Below are positions 14,121-47,503 of a stretch of 64,000 nt of DNA, piece by piece. The translations under genes were made by a program, and so were the position numbers. The notes under the pieces are model-generated. The model was not told the origin of the DNA. It saw only the letters and a program-made list of their open reading frames with translations, and searched no databases. The stretch comes from Saprospiraceae bacterium (GTDB taxonomy: Bacteria; Bacteroidota; Bacteroidia; Chitinophagales; Saprospiraceae), in assembly GCA_027488855.1 (NCBI GenBank), contig JAIYAV010000289.1, forward strand, positions 1 through 64,000. Direction: 5' to 3'. Every line of letters begins with the position of its first letter. Within the stretch, counting starts at the first letter, position 1.

Positions 14121-14415
14121 CTTTTTGATCTTTTTTTGTCTTGTAAAGAAATCGTGGTTCCTCAACTAAATCGGCAGATACCTCAGGGCAAAAGGATTTA
14201 CATCCAATTGCGATTAGGCACTGGATTAAAAAAACAGCACTAAAACTACCTCTGGAAATTTTGCTGTCAATACTTGCTTTGGTCTCATCAACACCAATAT
14301 CCTGCAATAGCACAACAAGATGTTCGTGCGTAATGCCGCGCCTAACCAATTCGGATTTTAATAGACGCTTTACTTTATCGTTCCAATCTGGCATTTCCAT
14401 ATTGCGAAAGTACAA
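14101..14415 (-). CDS. DUF6471-like small protein, possible RM regulator
   Basis: WNDKVKRLLKSELVRRGITHEHLVVLLQDIGVDETKASIDSKISRGSFSAVFLIQCLIAIG; 3' end overlaps the MTase start. Confidence 0.75.
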   Translation of the reverse strand: MYFRNMEMPDWNDKVKRLLKSELVRRGITHEHLVVLLQDIGVDETKASIDSKISRGSFSAVFLIQCLIAIGCKSFCPEVSADLVEEPRFLYKTKKDQKDEVSQS

Positions 14416-14457: not shown

Positions 14458-15183
14458 TCACACTGCATCAAATACCTTATCTTGCCCCCACCGTTCCGAC
14501 AATAGCTTAAAAAACGCAGGCCGATAACTCTGCCCAATCGGAATTTCGTGTTTGCCGATGCTCACCTGATGCCGCTCAACTACATTCAAATGCCGCAGCG
14601 AAATGATGTACGACTTATGGATTTTGCAGAAAAAATCGGGCAGAATTTCTTGCACATCCTGCATGTTTTGCCGACTGAGGATTTTGCGATCCTGGGTGTG
14701 AAAAACCACATAGTTTTCACTTTTTTCCAAAAACAAAACCTCTTCCCAGTTGAGGCGGTAGAGTTTGGGGCCACTTTTGATGAAAATTTCCTGGGCGGAA
14801 GGGTTGTTTTCGATGCTGGCATTGGCACTGACCGGAGCTTCCTTACAACGGCTGCAAGCCTGCAAAAAACGTTCAAAAGTGATCGGTTTGACCAGATAAT
14901 CCAGGGCTTCCAGCTCGTAACTGGCCACGGCGTATTCGGAGTAGGCCGTTGTAAAAATGACCTTGGGCTTGTCGGGCAAGGCGCGGTAAAACTCCACCCC
15001 AGAGATCTGAGGCATGTGAATGTCCAGCAGCAGCAAATCAACGGGATGATTTTGCAAAAAAGCCAGTGCTTCCAGTGGATTGCGGTAAGTACCAACACAT
15101 TTCAGCCAGGGCAAACGGTTGACGTAGTTGCTCAGCAGCTCAATGGCCTTGGGTTCATCGTCGATGATCAGTACTTCTTTCAT
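14458..15183 (-). CDS. LytTR-family response regulator
   Basis: REC domain (LIIDDEPKAIELL...LLLLDIHMPQISG) plus LytTR domain. Confidence 0.95.
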   Translation of the reverse strand: MKEVLIIDDEPKAIELLSNYVNRLPWLKCVGTYRNPLEALAFLQNHPVDLLLLDIHMPQISGVEFYRALPDKPKVIFTTAYSEYAVASYELEALDYLVKPITFERFLQACSRCKEAPVSANASIENNPSAQEIFIKSGPKLYRLNWEEVLFLEKSENYVVFHTQDRKILSRQNMQDVQEILPDFFCKIHKSYIISLRHLNVVERHQVSIGKHEIPIGQSYRPAFFKLLSERWGQDKVFDAV

Positions 15184-16208
15184 TCGTCCAGGCTAAGGCT
15201 AAGGTGGATGGAGAAATAATCTGCTTCGTCCACAATTCGCAGGGTGTGACGATCCGGGTACAGAAGGGCCAGGCGTTTGCGGACGTTTTCCAATCCAATG
15301 CCCTCTTGGTTCATGGAAGTAGACACCTGTTTGGTGTTTTTGGTGTTGAAATACAACATCCGACCTTCCACCGTCACGTCAATTTTGACCATCGACTGCT
15401 TGGTTACATCGATGCCGTGTTTGAGGGCATTTTCCACAAAGGGTATCAAAATAGCTGGGGCAATCATTTTGCCGTCCATCTCGCCTTGGGTATTGAGGCT
15501 GATGATCACATCGTCTTCGTCACTCAGGCGAAGGTGTTGAATTTCAATGAACCCGCCAATCTGCTCAACCTCACGGCGCAAGGGCACTTTTTCAGCATTG
15601 GTTTCATAAGTCAGGTAGCGCATCAAGCCAGCCAGGGAAGCGATGCTTTGCCCCAATTCCTCCTGGTTTTTTTCCACCGCCAGGGCGTACAAACTATTGA
15701 GGATATTGAATAAAAAATGCGGATTGACCTGAGCTTTGAGGAAAGCCAATTCTGTCGCCTGTTTCTCTGCGGCCAGTTTGCGCGTGGTCATTTCCGTTTC
15801 ATACCAGATGCGGGAAAAGCGAATCACCGCCGCGAAGAGCATGACGGAGAGGAACACGAAGAGGTTTTGTAGGTTGGGCAGGTAGTAAAAAAAGTAAAAA
15901 TTGTACCCCAGATCCGCCATAAACTCTGAGAAAACCCAAAACAACATCCAAGAGCGATCCAACAGCCAATGTACCCCAACCAACAAACTAAACAAGCCCC
16001 CATAAGCCAGGTAATTGCGTTGCTTGACCAGGTAACGGGGAATCAAAAAGTAGTTGTTGAAATAAGTGGCGGCCATGAGCAAAGGCATCCGAAACAAACT
16101 GGCCCAGGCGATATTCGAGAACTCGCAATCCATGTTCATCCACAAAATGGTTGTCCACAACCAGATGATGGCCCAAAAAAGGATGTGTTTGGCGATTCTC
16201 TTAATCAT
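15180..16208 (-). CDS. LytS-like sensor histidine kinase (His_kinase PF06580 type)
   Basis: QVNPHFLFNILNSLYAL, PAILIPFVENALKHG; overlaps the response regulator by 4 nt. Confidence 0.95.
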   Translation of the reverse strand: MIKRIAKHILFWAIIWLWTTILWMNMDCEFSNIAWASLFRMPLLMAATYFNNYFLIPRYLVKQRNYLAYGGLFSLLVGVHWLLDRSWMLFWVFSEFMADLGYNFYFFYYLPNLQNLFVFLSVMLFAAVIRFSRIWYETEMTTRKLAAEKQATELAFLKAQVNPHFLFNILNSLYALAVEKNQEELGQSIASLAGLMRYLTYETNAEKVPLRREVEQIGGFIEIQHLRLSDEDDVIISLNTQGEMDGKMIAPAILIPFVENALKHGIDVTKQSMVKIDVTVEGRMLYFNTKNTKQVSTSMNQEGIGLENVRKRLALLYPDRHTLRIVDEADYFSIHLSLSLDE

Positions 16209-16711: not shown

Positions 16712-18586
16712 TTATGAAGATCGGTATGCAATCGAGTGGTAGTTTTTGCTGTGTGGCCCCAGGAATACCCGGGCGTAAATCCGCATAATTGCCAAGCCAT
16801 CAATGATAAAACTCAGCGCCACAAAAGAGGCCAAAACCACCTGATTTTCGTGGATATGGCTAAAAATGAGATCCTCTCCGATAAAAGTAGGGGTGATTGG
16901 AAAGCCCGACAAGGCCAAACAACACACAAAAAACAGAAATGCCGCCACTGGATGTTCATAAACATGGCCATAAAAACGATCCATGTTAACAGTTTCCCGT
17001 TTTTTGAGCCAGTTCAGAATAATCCAACCTCCCACCCCTGCAAGCACCACGCCGCTGAGGTAAATATAGATTTCTAAAAAATCGAACTGCTCATTGTAAG
17101 AAGCAGCCAAAGCTATCCAGAAATGATTCATGATGACCAATACCCAACTTAGTCGGGCATGGAGGCGCTCAGAAAAAGCTTTTAACACCATAATCAATCC
17201 AAAAAAGCCGAAAGTTACTGGCAAATAAGCATGAGCAGTGGGTGAAATTAAACCTTCTGCGAAATGCAAAAAGTACAAGCCAATGAGGTAAGTAGGGATG
17301 AAAAACCAAAACAGGAGGGTGAGATTGAGAAAGTCCATTTTTTTACCCAATTGTTTCAATGGATTCCACAAATACTGGTACATGAATGCATCCAGATTCC
17401 ATTCCTTGATGCACAAAATGTACAGGGCGTATTCCGTTTTATTGGACAACAACTTGCCCTCCATCGACTTTTGCCGGGGGATAAATTTGTAAAACTGTTC
17501 TTTGATCAAATAACTCACGATGGAGGGTGAAACCAGCAGTTGGTAAGTGCGCAAAAACGCATTTCCGGCAAAGTGAACCAGCGCCAAAATGTGAAAACCT
17601 GCCGCCACTTCGATAAAAATCAGACCAATCTGGGCAATCGAAGCATAAGCCAACTGGCTTTTTACTGAAGATTGTACCCTGGCAACTCCAATGGCAATTA
17701 TGGTGGTGGACAAACCCAAAAGGGCAATCATGATGCGCACTGAAAGCTGATGCTCCCAAAAAGGGAAGGTGCGCAGCAACAGGAATACCCCCAAATGCAC
17801 CGACAAGGAGCCGTAAAAAATAGCACTGGAGGGCGTCGGCCCTTCCATGGCCCGTGGCAACCAAGAGGAAAAGGGCAACTGCGCCGATTTAGCCGCCGCA
17901 GAGATCAAAATCATCAGTGAAATGAATACCCCAATCCAGCTATGGGAGCTCAACTGATCACTAACCAGTTGAAAGTTGTCCAACTTTTCAAAGGTGATGC
18001 TTTCATGCCACAGGTGATGACTCATCCACATGGCCAGGATCAAGCCCACGTCGCCAATGCGGTAAATGGAAAAGATTTTCACCGCATTTTTCACTGGCAA
18101 ATAGCGGTCGCGGTAAAACGCAATCAATAAAAAAGAGGCAATCCCCAGTATTTCCCAACCTATAAACAAGGTTTCGAGATTGCCCGAGAAAATGGCAATG
18201 TTGTAACCTATATAGAAAAAAAGAATGGTGTTGAAATAGCGTTTGTAGCCTCTCTCGCGGTGCAGGTAATAACGGCTGTAAACGGTCACCAAAAAGGTTA
18301 AAAACGCCCCGGTAAGCAAATACACCGCAGTGATTTTATCGAACATCAGGGTGAAATCAAACTTGTAATGGTCGGTTTGTAGCAGGGTGATTTCTTTGGT
18401 TGTTTGCAACTTATGGTCTCCCAACAACCAAAAGATGGTGAATCCAAACGCAAACAACTCGTGTAAACCAATTGTGAGGAAGGCAATCCAGGACATGGTG
18501 TCTTCCTTCTTGTCTGGCACCAACAAACTGATGCCATAACCCAACAAGGGCAAGAGAATAAATATTGGCAATAATTGATCCATCAT
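16712..18586 (-). CDS. dabB: NuoL-like proton-conducting subunit DabB of the DAB inorganic carbon uptake system
   Basis: NuoL/MrpA-like family; directly adjacent to a DUF2309/DabA gene. Confidence 0.85.
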   Translation of the reverse strand: MMDQLLPIFILLPLLGYGISLLVPDKKEDTMSWIAFLTIGLHELFAFGFTIFWLLGDHKLQTTKEITLLQTDHYKFDFTLMFDKITAVYLLTGAFLTFLVTVYSRYYLHRERGYKRYFNTILFFYIGYNIAIFSGNLETLFIGWEILGIASFLLIAFYRDRYLPVKNAVKIFSIYRIGDVGLILAMWMSHHLWHESITFEKLDNFQLVSDQLSSHSWIGVFISLMILISAAAKSAQLPFSSWLPRAMEGPTPSSAIFYGSLSVHLGVFLLLRTFPFWEHQLSVRIMIALLGLSTTIIAIGVARVQSSVKSQLAYASIAQIGLIFIEVAAGFHILALVHFAGNAFLRTYQLLVSPSIVSYLIKEQFYKFIPRQKSMEGKLLSNKTEYALYILCIKEWNLDAFMYQYLWNPLKQLGKKMDFLNLTLLFWFFIPTYLIGLYFLHFAEGLISPTAHAYLPVTFGFFGLIMVLKAFSERLHARLSWVLVIMNHFWIALAASYNEQFDFLEIYIYLSGVVLAGVGGWIILNWLKKRETVNMDRFYGHVYEHPVAAFLFFVCCLALSGFPITPTFIGEDLIFSHIHENQVVLASFVALSFIIDGLAIMRIYARVFLGPHSKNYHSIAYRSS

Positions 18587-18587
18587 C

Positions 18588-21098
18588 TTAGTTTTCGGCG
18601 ATTAGATAAACCGGGAAATTCTCCGCGTGGGTTTCAAAAAGCGGCACCATGTTGTCAACAGTTTCCAGGGTCTTGTTGAGTGGCTCGTAGGGCACATATT
18701 TCCCATCTTTAAAGCGGGACATGGCTTTGGTTTCCGGGTGGACCACCACCAAATTCACCCATTCGTTGATGAACCACTCAAAGGTAGCAGCCGATCGTTG
18801 AATGCTGGTCAACACCACCTCGGGATAGTGTTCCACAATGATGAGCAGCCGCAAAGGGTCGTGTACTTCCGTCATTTGGGTGGGCAAACCTGGCCGCAAA
18901 TCCCCGTCGATCCCATTGGCTACACCAAATAGGCCCATTACGTTGTGTGGCAATTTGGAACCTGCCCCCAATTTTTGGTCATCTACCCGCGAGAAATAAT
19001 ACTCCAGGTTGATCCCGCCACATACCGGAGCGGCAGCATTCAGGATATTGGACAAATATTTGCCCTCAGGGTCAATTTGGTAATCGTAAGAATTGAGGAA
19101 GGAGCGGCGATCCAGAAACAAGCCGCGCGACAAATGCCTGCGCCCAACAATACAAAGGGCATTGGTGGCGTGGTTGAGTTCCGGGCGGGGCTCGAACAAG
19201 GATACCGAGCGCAACAACACCTTATCGTGTACTTTTAATGGTGTCTTGCTGGTATCAATGTAGTCAAAACGCCGGGATCTTTCCTTGGCATTGGAATCCA
19301 GAGCATTTTCAAAGATGACCTCGTTTTGGGTATGGCGCTCGAAATTGCTGGGCGAAAGGTCGTATTCGTCGTAAAAAACGATTTCATCCCGAGTAGTGTC
19401 GTGCAAACCACCTACAAATTGGGTCTCCCTGGGAATGTGCAAGCCACGCTCGGCCAGTTGAGCCCGTACCTCGAGGTGGTTGGCCATGTAGCTGAACACC
19501 CGTGCATTGACCGAACCCGCCCGACCACTACAAGCACCACAATCGTAAGCAGCGTAGTAGGGGTTGTTGAGGCTACTGGCACCGTGCCCGACGATGTAGA
19601 TCAGCGATGCAAAATCCTTGACCATACCAATGCTTCGCAACACGGCTTCGACCCGGTTCACCATTTCTTCTACCGTGTACCCCACTTGCAAGCCCTGATG
19701 TTTTTCGGGATGCTCACCACACTCGATGGTGAGTTTGGAGTACTTGTCCATGTGCTTCAGTGAAGAAGCCGTGGCCGGACTCATGGAGGGCCGGAAAATG
19801 TTCCAGAACAACTTTAAGGCTGCCCAAAAGCCCAAGGTTTGGGAAACCAGCCAGCCTCCAAGTGAGGAGTGGCTATGCTTATTGAAATACAGGTCGCGCT
19901 CCAAGCGGCTGCTGGATTCTTCCTCCCGAATCAGGTACTTGGGATTGACAGGAGCGGGGCAGGATTTGGTCAAAAACTTCCCGCCTTGTGGCTGAAAATA
20001 AAACTCGACCCCAAAAAAACCGGGCGTACCAAAAGTTTCACAATTCGGATCCATCGCTTCCAGGTAGCGGCGCAGTGAACATTCCCGGTCGTCGATGCAA
20101 AAGACGGCTTGAAAGCTCTTGTCCTTGATGACTTTGTGGCTGACCTGTTCCAACTGAATCCCCGCCAGAACCTGATCGAAATAACTCCATTCAAAAGCTT
20201 CCTGCCAAATGCTGAGCACTTCGTTTTGTTCAGAGTAAGGGATTTTGTCAAAAAGTGGCTGGGGGCGTTCTGTGAGTTTGCTGCCCAAGGGTTGCCAATC
20301 TTTTCCCTGCACAAAATCCATGGTATCAATTTCCAGCAACAATTCAAACACAATCAAGTCGTGTAAGCTGATCTTGCGGGTATCTAGCAGGGTTTGTGGT
20401 TGGTCTTCTACGGTTGAAATCATGCCCGACCAGCCTTGGTGGGCAAATTGTTGATCAAACAGGTATTGTTCAAACAAGGATTCATCCCCGACCAGGATAT
20501 GCAACAAATCAGTGATTTCGCACTTGGACCCCAGAAGCAATTCTTTGGCCCGTTTGCGGCGAAAAATGCTCACTTTGCTGTGCCGCTCCATGCGCCGGAT
20601 GGCTGATAAAAACCCTTTTTCGTTCACCGGAAATGGCCAGATGGAAATGCCTTGATCCATAAAGCTGCACAAGAGGCGGAATAAAAATGGATGCACCAGC
20701 GAATCCATGTCCAGATTGTAGACCCGCTTCCAGTGGTCGCGCAACTCCCCAATCCGAGGGTCGAATTCTTTGAGGTAATCGTTTTTGGTCAATTTCTGGA
20801 ACCACTCAGCGTGTTGCGCTTGCCCTTTGCGCTCCACAATCACCTTGTCCAATACCTGGCGATTGATGCGGCCCTTCTCGAACAAATCGCGAAACTCCTG
20901 CAGCGAAAGACTGACTTTATATCCAAAGATTGTGGCTGCTTTTTGGGTGCCTTCTTCAAACTTGAGGTGCTGGAAGGCGTGTAAGGTATTGTGGTGTACA
21001 AAGTCTTTCAGCGGAGCTTGAGCTGGAAGATAGTGTTTGAGCTCGTGTACAACTTGATGTGCATCAAACCCCTTCTGCAATTCAATTGGTTGACTCAT
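18588..21098 (-). CDS. dabA: DUF2309 / DabA inorganic carbon transporter subunit (beta-CA-like site)
   Basis: VFCIDDRECSLRRYLE (Cys/Asp) and VGHGASSLNNPYYAAYDCGACSG (His/Cys) match DabA zinc-site motifs; ATG at 21098. Confidence 0.92.
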   Translation of the reverse strand: MSQPIELQKGFDAHQVVHELKHYLPAQAPLKDFVHHNTLHAFQHLKFEEGTQKAATIFGYKVSLSLQEFRDLFEKGRINRQVLDKVIVERKGQAQHAEWFQKLTKNDYLKEFDPRIGELRDHWKRVYNLDMDSLVHPFLFRLLCSFMDQGISIWPFPVNEKGFLSAIRRMERHSKVSIFRRKRAKELLLGSKCEITDLLHILVGDESLFEQYLFDQQFAHQGWSGMISTVEDQPQTLLDTRKISLHDLIVFELLLEIDTMDFVQGKDWQPLGSKLTERPQPLFDKIPYSEQNEVLSIWQEAFEWSYFDQVLAGIQLEQVSHKVIKDKSFQAVFCIDDRECSLRRYLEAMDPNCETFGTPGFFGVEFYFQPQGGKFLTKSCPAPVNPKYLIREEESSSRLERDLYFNKHSHSSLGGWLVSQTLGFWAALKLFWNIFRPSMSPATASSLKHMDKYSKLTIECGEHPEKHQGLQVGYTVEEMVNRVEAVLRSIGMVKDFASLIYIVGHGASSLNNPYYAAYDCGACSGRAGSVNARVFSYMANHLEVRAQLAERGLHIPRETQFVGGLHDTTRDEIVFYDEYDLSPSNFERHTQNEVIFENALDSNAKERSRRFDYIDTSKTPLKVHDKVLLRSVSLFEPRPELNHATNALCIVGRRHLSRGLFLDRRSFLNSYDYQIDPEGKYLSNILNAAAPVCGGINLEYYFSRVDDQKLGAGSKLPHNVMGLFGVANGIDGDLRPGLPTQMTEVHDPLRLLIIVEHYPEVVLTSIQRSAATFEWFINEWVNLVVVHPETKAMSRFKDGKYVPYEPLNKTLETVDNMVPLFETHAENFPVYLIAEN

Positions 21099-21347
21099 CG
21101 CGGATGATTTTCTTAAAGTAGTTGTGGTGCTATCTGTCGGGTCAAAGGGCAGAAGCACTGCTCTTAGTGTTGATCCGAAACAAAGGTATTGGTCTAAAAC
21201 CGCAGGAGACAAATTTGAAGTGTGGAAAAAGGGTCGAAGCGGGCAAATTCGGGGGGCGAAGTTGGGGGAGGGGACAATACAAATCTCGCATACCTCACCT
21301 TTACTATTGCGTTACCCCAATCTTTTGCCAATACCGTTTAACTAGAG

Positions 21348-35838: not shown

Positions 35839-36138
35839 GGAGGTTGAGTAACATGAGTCATACCGAATTTTTGAAAAGTCAAAATCGGGAATACACCTAA
35901 TCGCGGAGCGATTGAATTTAGAATAGCCCCGGTCGTCCGGGGTAAATAATTTGGTCAAATTGGCGGCAACCACGGCAGTGGTTGAACTCAATTGAGCAAA
36001 AAGTTCAACCGCATCCGCGGTTGCGGAACCTTTTGCTACCAAAATTACCCCGGACGACCGGGGCTATTCTAAATTCAACCGCATCCGCGGTTTGTTATCC
36101 CAAAAAAATCGGGATGACTCATGTTACTCAACCTTCCT
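35837..36138. repeat. composite inverted repeat: outer GTTGAGTAACATGAGTCATMCCGAATTTTT arms, inner perfect 32-bp arms (GAATTTAGAATAGCCCCGGTCGTCCGGGGTAA)
   Basis: Outer 35837-35872 / 36104-36138; inner 35914-35945 / 36045-36076. Confidence 0.92.
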
Positions 36139-36163
36139 CAACCTCCATAAACCATATGTACCA

Positions 36164-36934
36164 ATGAAAATCCTGATCGTAGAAGACGAGCCCAAGACCG
36201 CCCAGGACTTGAGCGAAACCCTCCAGGAAATCGATTCTTCCATTACCATTCTGGGCATTACCGACTCGATTGAAGGTACGCTCAATTTTTTGGCTTACCC
36301 GCCTGCACCAGATCTCATCTTTTTAGACATCCAGTTGGCCGATGGCCTGAGTTTTGATATTTTTAAGGAGACAACTATACTTTGTCCGGTGGTGTTTTGC
36401 ACTGCTTATGACGAATACGCGCTTCAGGCCTTTCAAACCAATGGGGTAGCCTATGTACTCAAACCTTTCAGTACCGCAGATGTCCGTTTGGCCCTGGACA
36501 AAGTAAAATCACTGGCGAGTTTTTATCGTTCGGAGGCTCCGGATTTGCGCGCCTTTGCCGAAGCAATGGATACTTTGCACAGCAGCGGGGGGCTCAAAAG
36601 TAATTTTTTGGTATCCTTTAGAGGCAGCTTCATCCCCATTCCCACCAAAGAAATCGCCTTGTTTTACATTTTGGGTGAAGATGTTTGTCTGCAAACCTTC
36701 AAAGGCAATACTTACCTGGTACCACATTCACTCGAAGAAATTGAACGTATGGTCGGCCACCAACAATTCTACCGAGCCAATCGCCAGCACCTCATTAATT
36801 TTGAACTGATTGAATCTATTGAGCAGGATTTTGCCCGCAAGTTGAAAATCAAACCCAAAGTCAAATGCCACGATCAAATCACAGTGAGCAAGGCAAAGGC
36901 CAGTGAGTTTTTGCAATGGATGAATACGAGGTGA
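36164..36934 (+). CDS. LytTR-family response regulator
   Basis: MKILIVEDEPKTAQDLSE, REC plus LytTR domains. Confidence 0.94.
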   Translation: MKILIVEDEPKTAQDLSETLQEIDSSITILGITDSIEGTLNFLAYPPAPDLIFLDIQLADGLSFDIFKETTILCPVVFCTAYDEYALQAFQTNGVAYVLKPFSTADVRLALDKVKSLASFYRSEAPDLRAFAEAMDTLHSSGGLKSNFLVSFRGSFIPIPTKEIALFYILGEDVCLQTFKGNTYLVPHSLEEIERMVGHQQFYRANRQHLINFELIESIEQDFARKLKIKPKVKCHDQITVSKAKASEFLQWMNTR

Positions 36935-36937
36935 AAA

Positions 36938-37020
36938 TGAAAAATGAAAAACTAAAAATGAAAACCACTAACATGTGTTTCATTTTTCATTTTTCATTTT
37001 TCATTTTTCATTTTTCATTT
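36938..37020. repeat. heptad-periodic inverted repeat (TGAAAAA)n / (TTTTTCA)n between convergent RR and HK genes
   Basis: Direct reading; overlaps the 3' end of the kinase gene. Confidence 0.9.
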
Positions 37021-38021
37021 AAAATCGGTAGCCACACTTCAAAGTATTTTTCTCCCTTCAAAACTTTCACTTCACGATTTCCAAGGAGTTGGTAGCGTTG
37101 TCGGATGTTCTCCAGGCCAAGGCCAGTATGGTGCTCAACCGTACGTTTGGGTTGGAGGTTGTTGCGGATGATGATATTGGCATCGTCATTATAGATTTCA
37201 ACCAGCAGCGCTTTCCCTACCCCAATCATGTTGTGTTTTATCGCATTTTCAATGAGGAGTTGGAAGGTATTGGGAGGGGTGTAACTCTCATACACTTCTG
37301 GCGACAGAGATACTTCCAGTTTAAAATTGTCTTCAAAGCGGGCGTGAATCAAACTGGCGTAGGAGCGGGCAATCGACAGATCTTCACGCAAGGACACTTT
37401 TTCCTTCTGGTTGTTTTGCAGCAAATAGCGGTACACATCGGCCAACTGAACAATGAAGTCCTGGGCAGTGGGGTTACTGCCCTTTACCAGCGTTTTTAAG
37501 GTATTGAGTGCATTGAATAAAAAATGCGGATTGACTTGTTGGCGCAACAGATCCATTTGCGCCTTGGCACTCATTTCCATCAGTTGCGCATTTTTTACTT
37601 GTACTTGCTGGATTTGGTATACTGAGCGCACCGCGTAAAAGAGGATTTGTAAAATGATGTTGATGAGGATGCCCCGGAAAATGAAAAAGACCAGTGGTGC
37701 CTTTTCTTCTTTGATCGTCTCATGAACGATTATTTCGACGACTAAAACCAAAGAGACGCCTACAAAAAGGCTAATGGCACTTTGGACAAATAGCCTTAGT
37801 GCTTCAGATTTGAAAGAGTTGCGGAATTGCTCTTCGCGTCGATCCAGCGCAAAGTTGAATTGCCAGATCAAAATCGAATAAGTACAAAGCACCAAAAAGT
37901 CGATGGATGCTTGCAGTACGTCCTTGTATTCTCCATCAACCGCCCGGTTCAACATGAAGAAAAAGGTAATGGCCAGGGTAGCCCAAATGGCAATTTTTCG
38001 AAAGTAGCGTTGAAAAACCAA
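37008..38021 (-). CDS. LytS-like sensor histidine kinase
   Basis: QQVNPHFLFNALNTLKTL, TFQLLIENAIKHN. Confidence 0.94.
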   Translation of the reverse strand: MVFQRYFRKIAIWATLAITFFFMLNRAVDGEYKDVLQASIDFLVLCTYSILIWQFNFALDRREEQFRNSFKSEALRLFVQSAISLFVGVSLVLVVEIIVHETIKEEKAPLVFFIFRGILINIILQILFYAVRSVYQIQQVQVKNAQLMEMSAKAQMDLLRQQVNPHFLFNALNTLKTLVKGSNPTAQDFIVQLADVYRYLLQNNQKEKVSLREDLSIARSYASLIHARFEDNFKLEVSLSPEVYESYTPPNTFQLLIENAIKHNMIGVGKALLVEIYNDDANIIIRNNLQPKRTVEHHTGLGLENIRQRYQLLGNREVKVLKGEKYFEVWLPILNEK

Positions 38022-38189
38022 TTCCCGATTTTTTTCTCAAAAGTAATCAAAAATAGCAGATGCAAGTCTTCCCTCTTGGGGTCAGTTGCCGCAAAACGGG
38101 CCGAAGCTCCCCCCAAGCGGGCAAAGTCGCCGCTGAAATGCCAGCCACATTCAAGAGATTTGCCTTGCTGATTGAGTAAAAAACCAAGC

Positions 38190-40169
38190 ATGACAAATCA
38201 ATCCATTTTACTAGGTTCCATGTTGCTGTCTCCACTGCTATTTCTGCTGCGGGGGCAACCGCGTTACTGGGCTGCCATACTGCTGCACCTGACGGTGATC
38301 GTAGCAAGTTCCAGCGCGGCCATAAGCGTATTTCAGGGGCAAGCCTGGGGGGTCGATACAGGTATTTACCTGCTGGGTGTACCCATTCGATTGGAATTGG
38401 ATGCGCTGAGTGCCTTTTTTGTAATGGTCATCAACCTCACCATGTTGACAGGTGCCTGGTATTCCGGGGGCTACCTCAAACCTTACGAATCCAGCAAAAG
38501 TGCCATTGAGTTGTCTTTTCACCGCTTTACTTATCTCTGGTTGCACCTGGCGATGATTGTGGTCGTTATGGTGCCGCAGGGAACGCCATTTTTATTTGCC
38601 TGGGAACTCATGACTTTGACTGCCTTTATCCTGGTCGCTTTTGAATGGGAAAAACCCGAATCGGTACATGCGGCGCTCAATTACCTGGTACAAATGCACG
38701 TTGGCTTTGTCTTTATCCTGATCGGCTTGTTTTTGATCCAATACCAGGGCGGGGGCAGTTTTAGTTTCAGCGGATTGGCAAAGACACAAATGCCAGTGCA
38801 GGCTTTTTTACTGCTTTTGGTTGGTTTTGCTTTTAAAGCCGGGTTTATGCCTTTCCACACCTGGTTGCCACACGCCCACCCTGCGGCACCTTCCCATGTA
38901 TCAGGGGTGATGTCGGGCGTCATCATCAAAATGGGGATTTACGGCATTTTGCGCTGTGTGATCTATTTGCCCAAGGAACATTGGATGACCATGGGTGCAA
39001 CCATTCTGATTGTATCGATCATCTCTGGCGTGATGGGTGTGATTTATGCGATCATGCAACACGACGTAAAAAAACTTCTGGCCTACCATAGTATTGAAAA
39101 CATTGGCATCATCGGCATCGGCATTGGGCTGGGCATGATGGGGTATGCACTGGGGCATCCGGTATTGGCAACTTTGGCTTTTGCCGGGGGCATTTTGCAC
39201 ATCCTGAACCATTCCTTGTTCAAATCACTGCTGTTTTACTCCGCAGGTTCGGTGTATCAACAAACCCATACCCGCTATGTGGAAAAACTGGGCGGTTTGA
39301 TCAAAAAAATGCCGTATACCGCATTCTTATTCTTGCTAGGCGCCCTGGCCATTTGTGGTTTGCCTCCTTTTAATGGTTTTATCTCCGAGTTTTTGATCTA
39401 CTACGGGGCTTTTAGCCACATTGGTGCAGGCGACATGAACGAGGCCTTGATCCTGCTGACTTGTATCCTGAGTTTGGCCTTGATTGGGGGCTTGGCTATT
39501 TTTTGCTTCACCAAGGTATTCAGTATCGTATTTCTGGGCTCAAGTCGCAGCTCTGCAACAACGGGAGCCCAGGAAGTAAGCCTGAGCATGTTGTTGCCAC
39601 AAGGTTTGATTGGTTTGGTCATTTTGGCGATTGGTTTGGTGCCTGGTTTCTTTGTACACTACATTGAGCAGGTGGCAGGGCTTTATCTTCCAGATGCCAG
39701 TTTGCCACATGCTTATTTGGATACGCTGCGCTATGTAGGCATTGCTTCGGGGATTTTCATCCTTCTGCTGGTTGTCCTGATTTTGTTGCGGAGCATCCAA
39801 CAGCGGCGGGTAGAAGTGGCTTATGGCCCAACCTGGGGTTGTGGTTACACGGGGGCTGATCCTGCATTACACCAATATACGGCTACCTCTTATGCCGATA
39901 ATTTTGTCCAATTGGCGGAACCTATTTTGGGCGTAGAAACCCACTATACCCCTTTTGCTGAAACGGAAATTTTCCCTCATACCCACCATTTTGAACGGCA
40001 TCAGCACGATCCAATGGAGGCCAATTTGGTGGAAAAACCGGGCAATGCCCTCTTGTACTACCTGCAAAAATCCGCTGTATTTCAATCCGGCAAATTGCAA
40101 CACTACCTCTGGTACGGATTGCTCTTTCTGATGGTGGTAGGCGCGATGTCTTACCTCAAGATACTTTAA
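38190..40169 (+). CDS. HyfB-like (NuoL/antiporter-like) membrane subunit of a Hyf-type complex
   Basis: FAWELMTLTAF, PFHTWLPHAHPAAPSHVSGVMSGVIIKMGIYGILR. Confidence 0.92.
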   Translation: MTNQSILLGSMLLSPLLFLLRGQPRYWAAILLHLTVIVASSSAAISVFQGQAWGVDTGIYLLGVPIRLELDALSAFFVMVINLTMLTGAWYSGGYLKPYESSKSAIELSFHRFTYLWLHLAMIVVVMVPQGTPFLFAWELMTLTAFILVAFEWEKPESVHAALNYLVQMHVGFVFILIGLFLIQYQGGGSFSFSGLAKTQMPVQAFLLLLVGFAFKAGFMPFHTWLPHAHPAAPSHVSGVMSGVIIKMGIYGILRCVIYLPKEHWMTMGATILIVSIISGVMGVIYAIMQHDVKKLLAYHSIENIGIIGIGIGLGMMGYALGHPVLATLAFAGGILHILNHSLFKSLLFYSAGSVYQQTHTRYVEKLGGLIKKMPYTAFLFLLGALAICGLPPFNGFISEFLIYYGAFSHIGAGDMNEALILLTCILSLALIGGLAIFCFTKVFSIVFLGSSRSSATTGAQEVSLSMLLPQGLIGLVILAIGLVPGFFVHYIEQVAGLYLPDASLPHAYLDTLRYVGIASGIFILLLVVLILLRSIQQRRVEVAYGPTWGCGYTGADPALHQYTATSYADNFVQLAEPILGVETHYTPFAETEIFPHTHHFERHQHDPMEANLVEKPGNALLYYLQKSAVFQSGKLQHYLWYGLLFLMVVGAMSYLKIL

Positions 40170-40197
40170 CCCTTTTGATGACCCAAAAGAAAGAAAA

Positions 40198-41109
40198 ATG
40201 TCAATTCTACTCTACTTACTTTATACCTGCTGCGCCCTATTGATTCCGGGGGTAATTGCCATCACCAAGGCCAAGCTTAGTGGTCGCAAAGGGCCTGGAT
40301 TGTGGCAGCCGATCTACGATATTTTGCGCCTTTTGAGCAAGGGTAGCGTATACAGTACAACTACTAGTTATTTGTTTCAATATGCTCCCCTGGTGAATTT
40401 TGCAGCGACTTTATTGGCCTTGGCCTTTATCCCGCTGGGAGACATTCCTGGCCTAATGCATTTTCAGGGCGACTTCGTCTTTTTTGCCTACCTACTGGGT
40501 TTAGGTAAGTTTTTGTTGATCCTGAATGCCATGGATACAGGCAGTGGTTTTGAAGGCATGGGTGCCAATCGTGAAGCGCTGTATTCTATGTTGGTTGAAC
40601 CAGCCTTTTTTATCGTCATGGGCTCAATGGCTTTGCTGAGTGGACACAATTCTTTTGTCGACATTTTTAGTCAATTTCAGGATACCAGTCAATACGCCAT
40701 TTTATTGGGTTTTCTGGGCGCCTACATCCTGGGACAAATTGCCATGGTGGAAAACAGTCGCCTCCCAGTGGACGATCCACGGACGCACCTGGAGTTGACG
40801 ATGGTTCACGAAGTAATGGTACTCGACAATAGTGGTTTTGATTTTGGAATCATCATGATCACCAATAGCCTCAAGTTTGGCATTTATGCTGGACTACTGG
40901 CCAATTTGATGGTGCCAATATGGTTGCCACTGGGTTTTCGGCTGGGTTTTGCCCTTTTGATTTCCTTGTTGTTTGGGGTGATGGTGGGCTTATTGGAGTC
41001 CTTTCGGGCACGCAACAAAATGGCGCGTAACCCCCAATTCATCCTCACGCTGTCGGCGGTTTCCTTGCTGTTCTTTTTTACCGTAATGATCATCGCCAAC
41101 CGGATTTAA
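40198..41109 (+). CDS. HyfC-like (NuoH-like) membrane subunit
   Basis: GRKGPGLWQPIYDILRLLSKG, GANREALYS, ENSRLPVDDPRTHLELTMVHE. Confidence 0.94.
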   Translation: MSILLYLLYTCCALLIPGVIAITKAKLSGRKGPGLWQPIYDILRLLSKGSVYSTTTSYLFQYAPLVNFAATLLALAFIPLGDIPGLMHFQGDFVFFAYLLGLGKFLLILNAMDTGSGFEGMGANREALYSMLVEPAFFIVMGSMALLSGHNSFVDIFSQFQDTSQYAILLGFLGAYILGQIAMVENSRLPVDDPRTHLELTMVHEVMVLDNSGFDFGIIMITNSLKFGIYAGLLANLMVPIWLPLGFRLGFALLISLLFGVMVGLLESFRARNKMARNPQFILTLSAVSLLFFFTVMIIANRI

Positions 41110-41132
41110 TCACCCTAAATAAACACAGACCT

Positions 41133-41762
41133 ATGCTTTTGCTACTGGCTTTTGGACTCACTTTGGTTTATATGGGGATTGCCGACCGGGTACGGCGGCT
41201 AATCGACATGTTGATTTTGCAGGGTGTATTGTTGTTTGGGATGGCCATTGTGCAGTTGCACCATATTGAAGTACTCAATTTGGTCTTCATTCTGCTGGAA
41301 ACCCTGGTGGTAAAAGCGGTGGTATTGCCACTTTTTTTGCTGCGGGTAAAAAAGAAAAACGAAATATCCCGGGTCAGCACCACTGCGGTATCGGGCTTTA
41401 GTAAAGGGTTGTGGATGGCAGTCATCATTGCTTTCAGCTTTACCGCCGGGCATTTGTTGCACGAGTCTTCGGATGCCATTCAGGCCAAGTATTTTTCGGT
41501 AGGCATTGCAGCCATTCTTACAGGCATCATGCTGATTGTCAAACACGACAAGGTGTTGACTCACTTGATGGGTTACCTGGTGCTGGAAAATGGAATATTC
41601 TTACTTACGCTGGCGGTGGGCGGCGAAATGCCAATCATTGTCAACGGGGCAATTTTGCTGGATATCGTACTGGCGGTGTTGGTGCTAGGTTTGATCATCA
41701 ACCGCTTGAGTACCAATTTTGGTGGTACAGCCTTGAGCCATCTTTCTGAATTGAAGGATTGA
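41133..41762 (+). CDS. HyfE-like (NuoK-like) membrane subunit
   Basis: GYLVLENGIFLLTLAVGGEMPIIVNGAILLDIVLAVLVLGLIINRL. Confidence 0.88.
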   Translation: MLLLLAFGLTLVYMGIADRVRRLIDMLILQGVLLFGMAIVQLHHIEVLNLVFILLETLVVKAVVLPLFLLRVKKKNEISRVSTTAVSGFSKGLWMAVIIAFSFTAGHLLHESSDAIQAKYFSVGIAAILTGIMLIVKHDKVLTHLMGYLVLENGIFLLTLAVGGEMPIIVNGAILLDIVLAVLVLGLIINRLSTNFGGTALSHLSELKD

Positions 41763-41918
41763 TTGAGTGGAGGGAATTTCATTCTGTCGACTCAATCAAG
41801 AGCTTAATTGGGGTTTTCGGGCGTTGGAGAGAAGCGCCCGAACTATGGGTTGGGGGAACTCGATTCCCCCACCTTTTAAAAAGAACAAGCATGTTTATTT
41901 TTAAGAACAAGCATATTT
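41759..41918 (+). promoter_or_regulatory. three consecutive hairpins plus a 16-bp direct repeat between hyfE-like and hyfF-like genes
   Basis: TTGATTGAGT/ACTCAATCAA, TTCGGGCG/CGCCCGAA, TGGGGGAA/TTCCCCCA; AAGAACAAGCATRTTT at 41881 and 41903. Confidence 0.65.
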
Positions 41919-41944
41919 AACCACGAGTCAAAAACGGCCATGTT

Positions 41945-43375
41945 ATGATTGCACTGTATTTATTCATCGCTTTGTGCTGTAGTGCCCTGGCTTTTGGGGT
42001 AAAACAACGCTGGGCAAGCGTACTGGCTGTATTGGCTTTTTTGAGCACTCAGTTGGGGCTCAATTATTACGCCTGGGAGCATCTCAACCAGAACGATTCT
42101 ATCTATTTTAGTTTCGATGCATTGGGTTTTATTTTTACTTCGGTATTGAGTATCATTAGTTTGCCCGTTTTTTACAACAGCTATCGCATGCTGGAGCACC
42201 AAACGGGGGAATGGCCAGACAAAAGAAAGGCCAGTCTTTACACCGCTGCCCTGATTGTACTCGTTGCCGTATTGACTTCCGTTTATTTTGCCGATAACTA
42301 TGGCATTTTGTGGGTGCTGATAGAAGTTTCAACCATTGCGCTGGCGGCACTGATCTATTTCTACCGCACCAAACTGGCCTTGGAGGCTACCTGGAAATAC
42401 ATTTTCCTCAGTTCTATAGGGATTTCACTGGTCTTGATCAGCCTTTTGTTTTTAAATGTAGCCATGCACCGCGACTCGGGTGCAAGTTTGCACATCAGCG
42501 CAGTGCTGCAAAATGCCAAAAACCTGGATCCCCTTTGGTTGAAAGTAGCTTTTGCCTTGATGGTAACCGGGTTGAGCACCAAGATGGGGGTTTTTCCCTT
42601 TCATACGGTGGGTATCGATGCCACGATGGTGGCCCCCCATCCGGTCAATGTACTCATGTCGACTGCCCTCAAAAATGCAGGTTTCGTTGCCGTATTTCGC
42701 CTGTATCAGGCAGTCATGCAAACATCGATTGCCGATTGGGCCAGTCATGTATTGTTGCTGGTCGGATTAATTTCTATTGCCCTCGCTGCGACCCAAACTC
42801 AACGTACCCAAAACCTCAATCGGATGTTGGGCTACTCGGGCTTGGAGCACGTAGGATTGGCCTTGGTGGCACTCTCTTTAGGGCCTATCGGGTTTTATGC
42901 GGCGGTTTTCCACCTCGTGTTGCACTCCTTCGCTAAGGCGGGCCTTTTCCTACAAATGGGGCAAGTCAACCAGATTTACGATCACCACTTTCCTGAAAAA
43001 AATGCGGCCTATTTCCATAGCAACCCCATTGGGTCTTTGGTAGTCTTGTTGGGGTATATCGGGATAATGGCACTGCCACCTTCCGGTTTGTTCAGTACAG
43101 AGTTGATGATTTTTTCTCAACTCGCTGCGCAAAAACAGTGGTGGGTACTGGTTTTAGTCCTCTTCTTGATGACCATTGTGCTCTTGACGCTGGGGCGACA
43201 GGTGATGAACATGCTCTACGGGATCAAAGCCCAAATCAAAACGGATGTGGCAGTGGTCAAGGTAGACGCACTGGAAATAATTGCCCAAGTCACCATACTG
43301 GGATTGATGATTTATATCGGATTCAATCCTCCGATTTTTTTGGTTGACCTTTTGAATCAAGCTTGCGTACGCTAA
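41945..43375 (+). CDS. HyfF-like (NuoN/L-like) membrane subunit
   Basis: LWVLIEVSTIALAALIYFYRT, VAPHPVNVLMSTALKNAGFVAVFRLYQ, MLGYSGLEHVGL. Confidence 0.92.
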   Translation: MIALYLFIALCCSALAFGVKQRWASVLAVLAFLSTQLGLNYYAWEHLNQNDSIYFSFDALGFIFTSVLSIISLPVFYNSYRMLEHQTGEWPDKRKASLYTAALIVLVAVLTSVYFADNYGILWVLIEVSTIALAALIYFYRTKLALEATWKYIFLSSIGISLVLISLLFLNVAMHRDSGASLHISAVLQNAKNLDPLWLKVAFALMVTGLSTKMGVFPFHTVGIDATMVAPHPVNVLMSTALKNAGFVAVFRLYQAVMQTSIADWASHVLLLVGLISIALAATQTQRTQNLNRMLGYSGLEHVGLALVALSLGPIGFYAAVFHLVLHSFAKAGLFLQMGQVNQIYDHHFPEKNAAYFHSNPIGSLVVLLGYIGIMALPPSGLFSTELMIFSQLAAQKQWWVLVLVLFLMTIVLLTLGRQVMNMLYGIKAQIKTDVAVVKVDALEIIAQVTILGLMIYIGFNPPIFLVDLLNQACVR

Positions 43376-43386
43376 ACATCGGATCT

Positions 43387-44925
43387 ATGGTACTGACAAC
43401 AGACAAAAAAAGCATCAGCATACACAACACGGAAGCCGTTTCGATAGCGGAGATTCCGGTGTTGGCTTACGCCGACTTCAAAGCACAGGTTTTAACATGG
43501 TTGCATTTTGAAAAATGTCATTGTGTAGCCTATTTCGCCTATCCATTTGCAGGCGGATTAAAATTCATCGCTGCGATTGCCGATGATTCCAATGCGCAGG
43601 TTTATTTGCTTTCACATGAGCAAATGGGGACTCAGGCCATCGAGTTGGACGCCCTTAGTGCTTCGGCAATGCCGATGCACATTTACGAGCGAGAAATTGC
43701 CGAAAACTATGGGGTCGTTTTTAACAACCATCCCTGGCCCAAGCCGGTGCGCTTTGCGTTCAACCGCTTCAACCAGGAGATGCAAGTCAACGACTATCCC
43801 TTTTATAAAATTGAGAGTGATCAACTCCACGAAGTAGGGGTTGGGCCTATTCACGCCGGCGTAATTGAACCGGGGCATTTCCGGTTTTTGTGCAATGGTG
43901 AGACGGTGTTGCACCTCGAAATTCAGTTGGGCTGGCAGCACCGTGGGGTGGAGCAATTGTATTTGGATAAAAAAACGCTATTGCAGCGCGCCATTCTTTC
44001 TGAAAACATTGCTGGTGATACGGCAGTAGGACACGCTACTGCATCTGCCTTGCTTACTGAAAGCCTAACGGGTGCCAATACTCAAAATACCATGCTCGAT
44101 ATTGAGCGAACCATTGCCCTGGAATGGGAACGCATCGCCATGGGCATTTTTGATTTGTCGAACCTCAATGTCGGGATTGCTTACCAATTGGCCAATTCAG
44201 TGTTTGGGGCACTGCGGACACCAGTCATCAATTTTTTCCAATCCTGGTGTGGCAACCGTTTTGGTAAAAGCCTGATCCGCCCGGGAGGCACCCATTATCC
44301 GCTGACCGATGAATTGGTCGCAAAAATGGTGGCCATCATGGATGATTTTGAGACCCGTTTTGATGCCATGGCCGAAAAAACTTTCCATTTGCCCTCTGTA
44401 CTGAACCGTTTTGACGGCATTGGCAAAGTGACCAAAAAACAAATGACACTGATCGGTGCAGTTGGCCAAGCGGCAAAGGCGGCAGGGCTCATTCGGGATA
44501 CCCGCTATACCCACCCGGTAATGGCCTACGAAACCCTCAAAGTATTGCCCGAAATGCAAAACAGCGGGGATGTATTGGCGCGTTTCACCCTACGCAGACT
44601 GGAGATCAAACAATCCATCAGGATGATTCGCCACTTGTTGGACATGCGGCAATACGTGGATCAGGAGTCTGGTTCGCCATTGAAACAAAGTGAATACAGC
44701 ATGAAACCCAATGCCTTCAGTTTGGCACTAGTAGAAGGCTGGAGGGGCGAAATCTGCCATTGCGCGATCACTGATGAAAATGGGAATTTGCAACATTACA
44801 AGGTCAAGGATCCTTCCTTCCACAATTGGTTGGCACTGGCACTGAGCTTGCGGAATCTGGAAATTTCCGATTTCCCCATCAACAACAAGAGTTATAATTT
44901 ATCCTACTGTGGATTTGATTTGTAA
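43387..44925 (+). CDS. HyfG-like (fused NuoC-NuoD-like) large subunit lacking Ni-ligand cysteines
   Basis: LGWQHRGVEQLY; L1 position reads ENIAGDTAVGH and L2 position DPSFHN (no Cys). Confidence 0.9.
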   Translation: MVLTTDKKSISIHNTEAVSIAEIPVLAYADFKAQVLTWLHFEKCHCVAYFAYPFAGGLKFIAAIADDSNAQVYLLSHEQMGTQAIELDALSASAMPMHIYEREIAENYGVVFNNHPWPKPVRFAFNRFNQEMQVNDYPFYKIESDQLHEVGVGPIHAGVIEPGHFRFLCNGETVLHLEIQLGWQHRGVEQLYLDKKTLLQRAILSENIAGDTAVGHATASALLTESLTGANTQNTMLDIERTIALEWERIAMGIFDLSNLNVGIAYQLANSVFGALRTPVINFFQSWCGNRFGKSLIRPGGTHYPLTDELVAKMVAIMDDFETRFDAMAEKTFHLPSVLNRFDGIGKVTKKQMTLIGAVGQAAKAAGLIRDTRYTHPVMAYETLKVLPEMQNSGDVLARFTLRRLEIKQSIRMIRHLLDMRQYVDQESGSPLKQSEYSMKPNAFSLALVEGWRGEICHCAITDENGNLQHYKVKDPSFHNWLALALSLRNLEISDFPINNKSYNLSYCGFDL

Positions 44926-44958
44926 GCCCAACCCAAAACTGGAAAAACAGGAAAAAAC

Positions 44959-45720
44959 ATGATCATTGAAGAAATAAACATCCTGCGCCAACATGGCTGG
45001 CAATACATTCCGGATCCACTAAAGGCCGAAGTACCGGCACCTTTTCGAGGCCGTCCGGAGATACAAGTGGGCATGAGTTTGGACATTCAGCAAGAATTGT
45101 TCGATTTGTGCCCCGTGGAAGCGATAGGGATGAATCCCCTGTCGATTGATTTGGGTAAATGTTACTTCTGTGGCGAATGTGCGATGGCGCACCCACAAGC
45201 CATTCGTTTTACCAGTGACCATCGGCTGGCCAGCAATGTTCGCCAACGGCTCATTGTAGCAGCGGGCGATACCCGTGGAATAGAACTGGATCCTGACAAA
45301 ATCCGCAAAGAGATTACCGCTATGTTCGGCCGTTCGCTCAAGTTGCGCCAGATTTCTGCCGCCGGAGAGAACAGCCACGAAGCAGAACTAAACGCCTGTG
45401 GCAATGTCAACTTTGACATGGGCCGTTATGGCATCGAATTTGTGGCTTCGCCACGCCATGCGGATGGCATCGTAATCACGGGCCCCATTTCGCAAAACAT
45501 GGCCGAAGCTACCGAGATATGCTACGAAGCAGTACCCGACCCAAAAATTGTCGTACTCGTTGGCTCTGACGCCATTAGTGGCGGCATCTTTGCGGGGAGT
45601 GGTGCCTTGAATCGCAGCTTTTTGGACAAGGTATCTATCGATCTTTACGTACCAGGGAATCCCCCGCATCCCTTAACCTTCATCAATGGCATTTTGGCGT
45701 TGAGCCGGAGCAGGTCATAA
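44959..45720 (+). CDS. HyfH-HyfI-like fusion (ferredoxin-like plus NuoB-like) with substituted cluster ligands
   Basis: LGKCYFCGECAMAHP; FVASPRHADGIVITGPISQNMAEA; VGSDAISGG; VPGNPPHP. Confidence 0.9.
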   Translation: MIIEEINILRQHGWQYIPDPLKAEVPAPFRGRPEIQVGMSLDIQQELFDLCPVEAIGMNPLSIDLGKCYFCGECAMAHPQAIRFTSDHRLASNVRQRLIVAAGDTRGIELDPDKIRKEITAMFGRSLKLRQISAAGENSHEAELNACGNVNFDMGRYGIEFVASPRHADGIVITGPISQNMAEATEICYEAVPDPKIVVLVGSDAISGGIFAGSGALNRSFLDKVSIDLYVPGNPPHPLTFINGILALSRSRS

Positions 45721-45880
45721 CCTGTTTCTGCTCAACATAATAAAACCCAGCATCTGGATTTGACCTTTTGCTGATTCGCCCAATTAAGAACAACTGGTTA
45801 CCCATCCACTGCGCAGGAATCTCTCCCTGTTGCGGCGAGGAGACTGTTTTTTCAAAAAAGGACTCAAACAAATATTCATT

Positions 45881-47503
45881 ATGGAACAACAAACCATTAT
45901 TCGCCCAAAAACTGGTTGGGCTGGATTCAAAGAAAACTGGTCAAAAGACCTGTTATCGGGATTTTTGGTGTCCCTGATTGCGTTACCACTGAGTTTAGGT
46001 ATCGCCGGAGCAAGTAACTTCCCTCCCATCATGGGTGTTATGACAGCCATAGTGGGCGGTATAGTTGTCGCTTTTTTTGCAGGCTCTGAATTGACCATTA
46101 AAGGCCCGGCTGCCGGGTTGATCGTTATTGTTGCTGGTGCCGTTGAAGAGCTTGGCAAAGGAGACAATGACCTCGGCTGGAAACTGGCACTAGGTGTAGT
46201 GGTTGTAGCAGGGGCCATTCAGGTGTTGTTTGGCATCTTTAAGGTAGCTAAACTGGCCGACTTTTTCCCACTTTCAGCGGTTCACGGGATGTTGGCTGCC
46301 ATTGGCATCATCATCATGTCCAAACAAATTCACCTGGCGGTAGGTATTTCTCCTGCTGAATTGAAGGGCAAGGAACCACTGGAACTCTTGGCTATGGTAC
46401 CCAATAGTTTATACCACATGGAGTACCACGTTGCCATCATCGGCCTAGTCAGTTTGGTGATCCTGTTTGGCTGGCAATTCATCAAAGTGAAAGCTTTGAA
46501 AAAATTTCCACCTGCTCTATTGGTTTTGATTGCAGGGGTGTTGATGGGCTTGTATTTCAATTTGTCGGCCCCTAGTTATGCCGACATCAAACCATTGGTG
46601 AATCCCGGCGATTTCAAATTGGCTTTTAATGCCAGTTTTGCCGGATTGAGCAGCGATTTGTTGCCGATTTTCCTGAAATACGTCCTGATGTTTACCCTGG
46701 TAGGTAGCCTTGAGTCTTTGTTGACGGGTAAAGCGATCGACCTGCTCGATCCGTACCAACGGAAGGCCAACTTGAGCAAAGACCTTACCGCAGTAGGGAT
46801 TGGCAACATGGTAGCTGGCTTTTTGGGAGGCTTACCAATGATTTCGGAGGTTGCGCGTAGTTCCGCCAATATCAGCAACGGTGGGCGGACCCGGTGGGCT
46901 AATTTGTTTCAGGGCGTATCACTTTTGGTATTTGTAGTGGTACTGACTCCACTGATTAAAATGGTGCCTGTCGCTTCCCTGGCAGCAATGCTGATCTTTG
47001 TGGGCTTCCGTTTGGCTGCTCCAAAAGAATTTGTACATGTATACCACATTGGCAAAGAACAGTTACTCATTTTTATTGTAACCGTTATTGCAACCATATC
47101 AACGGATTTATTGATTGGTGTAGGCACAGGAATCTTACTCAAATTGATCCTGCAATTGATTTCTGGAGTACCCCTTCGTTACATTTTCCGTCAGCCCATC
47201 AAAATGTCCATTTCTGAAGAGGAATACCTCCTGGAAGTGAGTGGTGCTGCGACCTTCAGCAATTTGCTCAATATCAAAAAACATTTGGATAAAGTGCCTG
47301 CTGGCTCCAATGTGCGCATCGATTTGGAAAAATCTCGTTATGTAGACCACACCGTGCTCGAAAACTTGCACAACTACAAACGCGAGCACGAGTTGGGGGG
47401 CGGTAATTTTCAGGTGACGGGTATTGAAGGGCACAAACCGCTGTCTGATCACCCATTGGCAGCACGTCGGAGCAAGAACGACGACATGATTCAGCGCTCT
47501 TAA
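45881..47503 (+). CDS. SulP-family inorganic anion transporter with STAS domain
   Basis: LSGFLVSLIALPLSLGIAGASNFPPIMGVMTAIVGGIVVAFFAGSELTIKGPAAGL; C-terminal STAS region. Confidence 0.95.
   Translation: MEQQTIIRPKTGWAGFKENWSKDLLSGFLVSLIALPLSLGIAGASNFPPIMGVMTAIVGGIVVAFFAGSELTIKGPAAGLIVIVAGAVEELGKGDNDLGWKLALGVVVVAGAIQVLFGIFKVAKLADFFPLSAVHGMLAAIGIIIMSKQIHLAVGISPAELKGKEPLELLAMVPNSLYHMEYHVAIIGLVSLVILFGWQFIKVKALKKFPPALLVLIAGVLMGLYFNLSAPSYADIKPLVNPGDFKLAFNASFAGLSSDLLPIFLKYVLMFTLVGSLESLLTGKAIDLLDPYQRKANLSKDLTAVGIGNMVAGFLGGLPMISEVARSSANISNGGRTRWANLFQGVSLLVFVVVLTPLIKMVPVASLAAMLIFVGFRLAAPKEFVHVYHIGKEQLLIFIVTVIATISTDLLIGVGTGILLKLILQLISGVPLRYIFRQPIKMSISEEEYLLEVSGAATFSNLLNIKKHLDKVPAGSNVRIDLEKSRYVDHTVLENLHNYKREHELGGGNFQVTGIEGHKPLSDHPLAARRSKNDDMIQRS

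Follow-up and report, generated by a model that had tools for sequence, protein, structure and literature searches.

A putative Ehr-type complex, found mainly in Bacteroidota, lacking the ligands of the proximal [4Fe-4S] cluster

The hyf-type operon and its HyfI-like subunit

The window, a 64,000-nucleotide stretch of a Saprospiraceae contig, harbors an operon with the gene order HyfB-C-E-F-G-(H)I (38172-45720), followed by the gene of a SulP transporter. The features, with the scores of the models they match, are the following:

38172-40169, forward strand: HyfB-like antiporter subunit (PF00361, 174.8 bits)
40198-41109, forward strand: HyfC/NuoH-like subunit (PF00146, 102.1 bits)
41133-41762, forward strand: HyfE-like membrane subunit (NF008556, 40.5 bits, below the model cut-off of 136)
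41945-43375, forward strand: HyfF-like antiporter subunit (Proton_antipo_M, 131.4 bits)
43363-44925, forward strand: HyfG/HycE-like (NuoC-NuoD) large subunit (PF00346, 110.5 bits; alignment with HycE of formate hydrogenlyase, 7z0s_E)
44959-45720, forward strand: HyfH-like ferredoxin domain fused to a NuoB/HyfI-like subunit, 253 residues (PF01058 and a NuoI-like match)
45109-45180, forward strand: stretch with C51, C68, C71 and C74, the only [4Fe-4S] site kept in the ferredoxin domain (motif)
45367-45369, forward strand: E137, at the first Cys of the proximal cluster
45376-45378, forward strand: H140, at the second Cys
45568-45570, forward strand: D204, at the third Cys
45658-45660, forward strand: N234, at the fourth Cys
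45830-47503, forward strand: SulP anion transporter (PF00916, 224.6 bits; nearest solved structure 6ki1)

The 253-residue subunit is composed of two domains. The ferredoxin-like domain gives a NuoI-like match at residues 60-100, and the NuoB/HyfI-like domain matches PF01058 at residues 141-248 (72.2 bits, gathering cut-off 27). An AlphaFold2 model of the subunit (pLDDT 89.7, pTM 0.89) has its best Foldseek matches in formate hydrogenlyase (7z0s_G) and in MbhJ of MBH (6cfw_J), with a TM-score of 0.81 on the latter, and a predicted model of a relative that retains the four ligand Cys (L060) shows the same elements. The score above cut-off and the NuoB fold place the product in the Oxidored_q6 superfamily (PF01058).

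The translation of this reading frame includes RQISAAGENSHEAELNACGNVNFDMGRYGIEFVASPRHADG, then VLVGSDAISGG, then LYVPGNPPHP. An earlier note, made from the letters of this DNA, had claimed that the four ligands of the proximal [4Fe-4S] cluster are replaced in these segments by Glu, His, Asp and Asn at 45367, 45376, 45568 and 45658. The claim is borne out to the base, the codons of E137, H140, D204 and N234 starting exactly there. In a computed alignment with MbhJ (6cfw_J, E 1.2e-22), the best sequence match among solved structures, these residues pair with the Cys of the GSCNGC, GAC and PGC motifs. The multiple alignment agrees, the same columns reading Cys-Cys-Cys-Cys in the four-Cys relatives. 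A sequencing or assembly error is ruled out because the same four residues recur in L003, a separate MAG contig of 96% identity, and because the dN/dS between the window and L003 is 0.03-0.09 in HyfB, C, E, F and I (HyfG lying outside this set of five genes). These dN/dS values also rule out a pseudogene.

The large subunit is devoid of [NiFe] ligands. The RVCGIC motif of HycE reads NIAGDT, and the C-terminal motif reads SYCGFDL. Both [NiFe] motifs are absent from the large subunit of every aligned homologue.

Other genes of the window include two LytS/LytR-like kinase-regulator pairs, at 36092-36934 (forward) with 37008-38021 (reverse), and at 14458-15183 with 15180-16208 (both reverse); the kinase at 37008-38021 matches PF06580, and the others are judged by eye. 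By eye as well, 12870-14165 (reverse) resembles a DNA cytosine-5 methyltransferase, for which the adjacent ORF 12074-12910 may be a restriction partner.

Distribution and origin of the ligand loss

Two homologue scans gave 97 loci (numbered L) with a HyfI-type gene. With the window included, 62 sequences carry Asn at ligand position four and form the DxDN set; 33 close four-Cys relatives serve for comparison. Within the DxDN set, position 137 is Asp in 94% (otherwise Glu, Ala or Ser), position 140 is Cys in 73% (otherwise Ala, Asn, Thr, His or Asp), position 204 is Asp in 94% (otherwise Ala or Glu), and position 234 is Asn in 100%. Parsimony gives 3, at least 11, 3 and 0 changes within the clade, respectively, position 140 being the fast-changing one. 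Only the window and L003 have E137; H140 occurs in the window, L003 and L006. On these counts, Glu and His are a local variant, and Asp and Asn the signature of the clade. Conservation of the full Glu/His/Asp/Asn set, which the earlier note had proposed to look for in an alignment of homologues, is thus seen for D204 and N234 and not for E137 and H140. Members with D-A-A-N, A-D-D-N and S-D-D-N also exist, the first retaining one acidic residue. Fifteen further genomes of the same class, which may partly be of the same species as the earlier loci, gave 14 D-x-D-N sequences (one of them, L116, being D-S-D-N with Ser at 140) and one four-Cys sequence.

The family is patchily distributed (16 of 388 Bacteroidia genomes). 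Titles of the carrier records name Chitinophagales, Cytophagales, Bacteroidales and Flavobacteriales, with single MAGs of Spirochaetia and Marinimicrobia.

The Cys of the nearby NACGN motif (C147), which had been named as a possible true ligand that would overturn the earlier claim, is rejected as a ligand substitute because it forms a column of its own, separate from those of the four ligand Cys, and is found beside all four of them in 70% of the four-Cys relatives. It is present in 97% of the DxDN clade.

With the four ligand columns removed, a large- and small-subunit tree unites all 62 DxDN sequences in one clade (SH-aLRT 92, hence not above 95) nested in a paraphyletic four-Cys set, the nearest four-Cys sisters being L056, L059, L060 and L085. 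The loss of all four proximal ligands is real and old in the lineage of the window. A Rickettsiales MAG homologue (L071:4265-5047), a single long-branch sequence, reads N-D-S-D at the ligand positions, which looks like a second, separate loss.

The search for other changes on the loss branch took the residues shared by 90% or more of the clade and set them against the six four-Cys sequences nearest to it, or fewer where a subunit was missing. Eleven of 646 conserved positions in HyfB, C, E, F, G and I differ from all sisters, and three of the eleven are ligand sites, in a comparison devised after the ligand change had been seen and with thresholds (90%, absent from all sisters) of the author's choice. 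The separating residues are D137, D204, N234 and A182 in HyfI, Q188 and I464 in HyfG, F179 in HyfE, H78 and G316 in HyfF, and F187 and L332 in HyfB. Position 140, still Cys in most of the clade, is not among them. Few differences are to be expected since the stem branch of the clade is short (0.043); the point that stands out is the three of eleven at ligand sites.

The 646-position scan showed no newly fixed Cys in any of the six subunits, and no newly fixed Cys, His, Asp or Glu in HyfG, on which grounds compensating ligands supplied by another subunit are rejected. The only newly fixed His or Cys is H78 of HyfF, present in 94% of the clade; the sisters have Gln, Tyr or Asn, and the window itself has Asn (codon 42176-42178). 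As HyfF is a membrane antiporter subunit, H78 is presumably no ligand of the vacated site. At position 261 of HyfG (window codon 44143-44145), all other aligned clade members have His, the window having Gly and L003 Cys.

The remainder of the complex is retained. The ferredoxin domain keeps C51, C68, C71 and C74 in 100% of the 62 DxDN and 33 four-Cys sequences, with zero changes within the clade; by motif order they presumably bind the equivalent of cluster N6b, the N6a-type Cys being missing. In both classes, E145, K222, K253, K351 and E406 of HyfB are invariant, as are E56, E152 and D177 of HyfE, and E127, K213 and K331 of HyfF. The charged cytoplasmic loop of HyfC is likewise intact, R188, D192, D193, H197, E199, E205 and D210 being invariant in both. 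E386 of HyfF (window 43100-43102), a channel charge, is Glu in every clade member, most four-Cys relatives having Lys instead. Taken with the dN/dS values, these alignments indicate that the complex is preserved under strong purifying selection, with hardly any other consistent changes at the loss branch. In the operons of L005, L009, L030, L038 and L047, two HyfB-like genes stand in tandem, the window having one.

Genomic neighbours and possible roles

SulP lies downstream of HyfI in the window, in L003, L004, L005 and L080, and in the four-Cys sisters L056, L059, L060 and L085, and the SulP tree matches the Hyf tree except for an uncertain placement of L080. Most of the DxDN clade has no adjoining SulP. 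The nearest solved structure was deposited as a "low affinity sulfate transporter", which we take to be BicA. A carbonic anhydrase-family gene directly follows SulP in L080 (10763-11290; 43.9 bits, cut-off 25.7) and, with a score below cut-off, in L004 (8183-8740). Besides SulP, the recurrent neighbours are, in four-Cys relatives, regulators with HTH and PTS EIIA domains; neighbour clustering around the homologue loci revealed no conserved oxidoreductase partner gene.

Some 17 kb from its hyf/SulP operon, the window has a pair of genes for CO2/bicarbonate uptake, DabA (18588-21212, reverse; PF10070, 746.9 bits) and a DabB-like antiporter subunit (16712-18586, reverse; by eye and position). A link to DabA-type inorganic-carbon uptake was rejected, DabA showing no enrichment in carrier genomes (3 of 16, against 10 of 40).

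Taken together, these features are probably best explained by an energy-converting-hydrogenase-related (Ehr) complex that lost its proximal cluster once and acts as a redox-decoupled ion translocator. The loss would date from an ancestor of the clade, whose members are mainly Bacteroidota, with an Asp-x-Asp-Asn pattern taking the place of the four Cys (Glu-His-Asp-Asn in the window). No electrons would then pass through a proximal cluster to the pocket of the large subunit, and the complex would dispense with this transfer and act as a cation/proton translocator, its peripheral arm being perhaps structural or regulatory. Ion movement without redox chemistry at the pocket appears most likely because the ferredoxin cluster has no relay once the proximal cluster is gone; the remaining cluster could serve as a structural element or a redox sensor. 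The term ion translocator is drawn from homology since, to our knowledge, no member of the DxDN clade has a known activity.

In the lineage of the window, the complex probably works with the adjacent SulP, a partnership made plausible by co-inheritance, for example by providing a Na+ or H+ gradient for the uptake of bicarbonate or another anion. This last part is the weakest of the proposal. Bicarbonate as the substrate, suggested by SulP and its carbonic anhydrase neighbours, is a guess, and it cannot be the general role because SulP is absent beside most of the clade.

A tenable though doubtful variant holds that the whole clade lacks an electron relay and that the peripheral arm drives or gates ion transport, either through a non-redox reaction in the pocket, such as bicarbonate/CO2 chemistry beside SulP, or through pure ion coupling. 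Redox decoupling has against it the invariant ferredoxin cluster, which is not easily accounted for without electron movement. This cluster, together with a large subunit nearly the same as in the four-Cys sisters, which may still be redox enzymes, speaks for continued electron transfer from the ferredoxin-type cluster to an acceptor (quinone, flavin or other) bound in or near the empty pocket. However, the lack of a conserved neighbouring oxidoreductase gene makes such transfer unlikely, as does a distance known from complex I, where the gap between N6b and the quinone, without N2, exceeds the usual limit for fast tunnelling.

The earlier note had suggested that the site may hold a different metal or none, and the second half of this suggestion is the better supported. 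A conserved replacement metal is disfavoured because positions 137, 140 and 204 vary. A vacated pocket binding Zn, Fe, Mn, Ca or Mg through its acidic residues, its Asn and, in the lineage of the window, its His, and thereby forming a new redox or hydrolytic site, would fit the single residue types that prevail at 137, 204 and 234 after the loss of Cys, as well as the co-occurrence, in the window, L003 and L006, of H140, D204 and the nearby C147 with Glu or Asp at 137. It fits poorly with the repeated changes at position 140, with the D-A-A-N, A-D-D-N and S-D-D-N members, and with the lack of any newly fixed ligand-type residue in HyfG, and is regarded as quite unlikely; within the small E/D-H-D-N lineage (window, L003 and L006), a metal site of its own stays conceivable.

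That a modified iron-sulfur cluster is still bound through D137, C140, D204 and C147 is very unlikely. Some proteins are known to ligate [4Fe-4S] clusters through Asp, and C140 and C147 are both frequent in the clade; however, the window lacks C140, as do several other members, C147 is missing in L083, L084, L113, L115 and L116 and otherwise commonly occurs beside intact cluster ligands in the four-Cys relatives, and Asn is a poor ligand. Finally, the patchy distribution could be expected of a relic operon drifting after loss of function, but the low dN/dS in five operon genes, the retention of all subunits and charged residues, and the spread of the clade over several orders make decay barely credible.

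Comparison with complex I and related systems

A long-standing question on complex I concerns the coupling between electron transfer at cluster N2 and ion channels far away from it. The DxDN clade is a natural experiment in this respect: the cluster ligands are gone, six subunits show very few further consistent changes, and the complex is under selection. Should it still move ions, redox chemistry at the N2-type site is dispensable for conformational coupling in the superfamily; should it move none, the peripheral arm has been re-used. The close four-Cys sister complexes offer a ready-made control.

The operon combines NuoB, NuoD, NuoH and antiporter-like subunits, and neither of the two [NiFe]-binding CxxC motifs is present in the large subunit. 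As part of the explanation favoured above, the complex is thus probably a member of the Ehr group of the complex I superfamily, without the ligands of the proximal cluster. Marreiros 2013 and Coppi 2005 are said to be the defining papers of the group. Its members usually possess the proximal ligands, although we know of no formal requirement for them. Ehr complexes without [NiFe] ligands have been described, their function being stated or implied to be unknown (PMC10284858; PMC7304191; PMC6349859). The window complex resembles Ehr complexes in its Hyf/Ech-type subunit set, in a large subunit without [NiFe] Cys and in its antiporter-like membrane subunits; it differs in additionally lacking the proximal [4Fe-4S] ligands, which its four-Cys sisters have. 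The open-access literature searched yielded no description of an Ehr complex, or of any other complex I-type member, without these ligands, which does not establish priority.

Among group 4 [NiFe] hydrogenases (Hyf/Hyc/MBH), E. coli formate hydrogenlyase and hydrogenase 4 (HycG, HyfI; 7z0s) share their fold and subunit types with the window complex. The latter, however, has no [NiFe] site, no proximal cluster and a single ferredoxin cluster, and its operon has neither a formate dehydrogenase gene nor one of the HycB/HyfA type. MBH (6cfw) retains both its [NiFe] and proximal-cluster Cys, in contrast to the window complex. Maturation genes are lacking as well: HypD is absent from the genome of the window and from 15 of the 17 genomes with the family, a count that includes the four-Cys carrier G570. 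Nor does the hyf operon of the window encode the carbonic anhydrase-type hydrating subunit of inorganic-carbon pumps of the DAB or NDH-1MS type.

NuoB and NuoD of respiratory complex I are homologous to the window subunits, and the NuoH-like loop is kept. NuoB, however, retains the N2 ligands, whereas the window subunit has lost these Cys and scores 86.8 bits against a PRK06411 cut-off of 116; an ordinary NuoB is encoded separately in the same genome. The window complex is not an Mrp because Mrp has no NuoB/NuoD arm. Under the redox-decoupled reading, it would nonetheless work like the Mrp cation/proton antiporters, its antiporter-type subunits likewise moving ions without redox chemistry.
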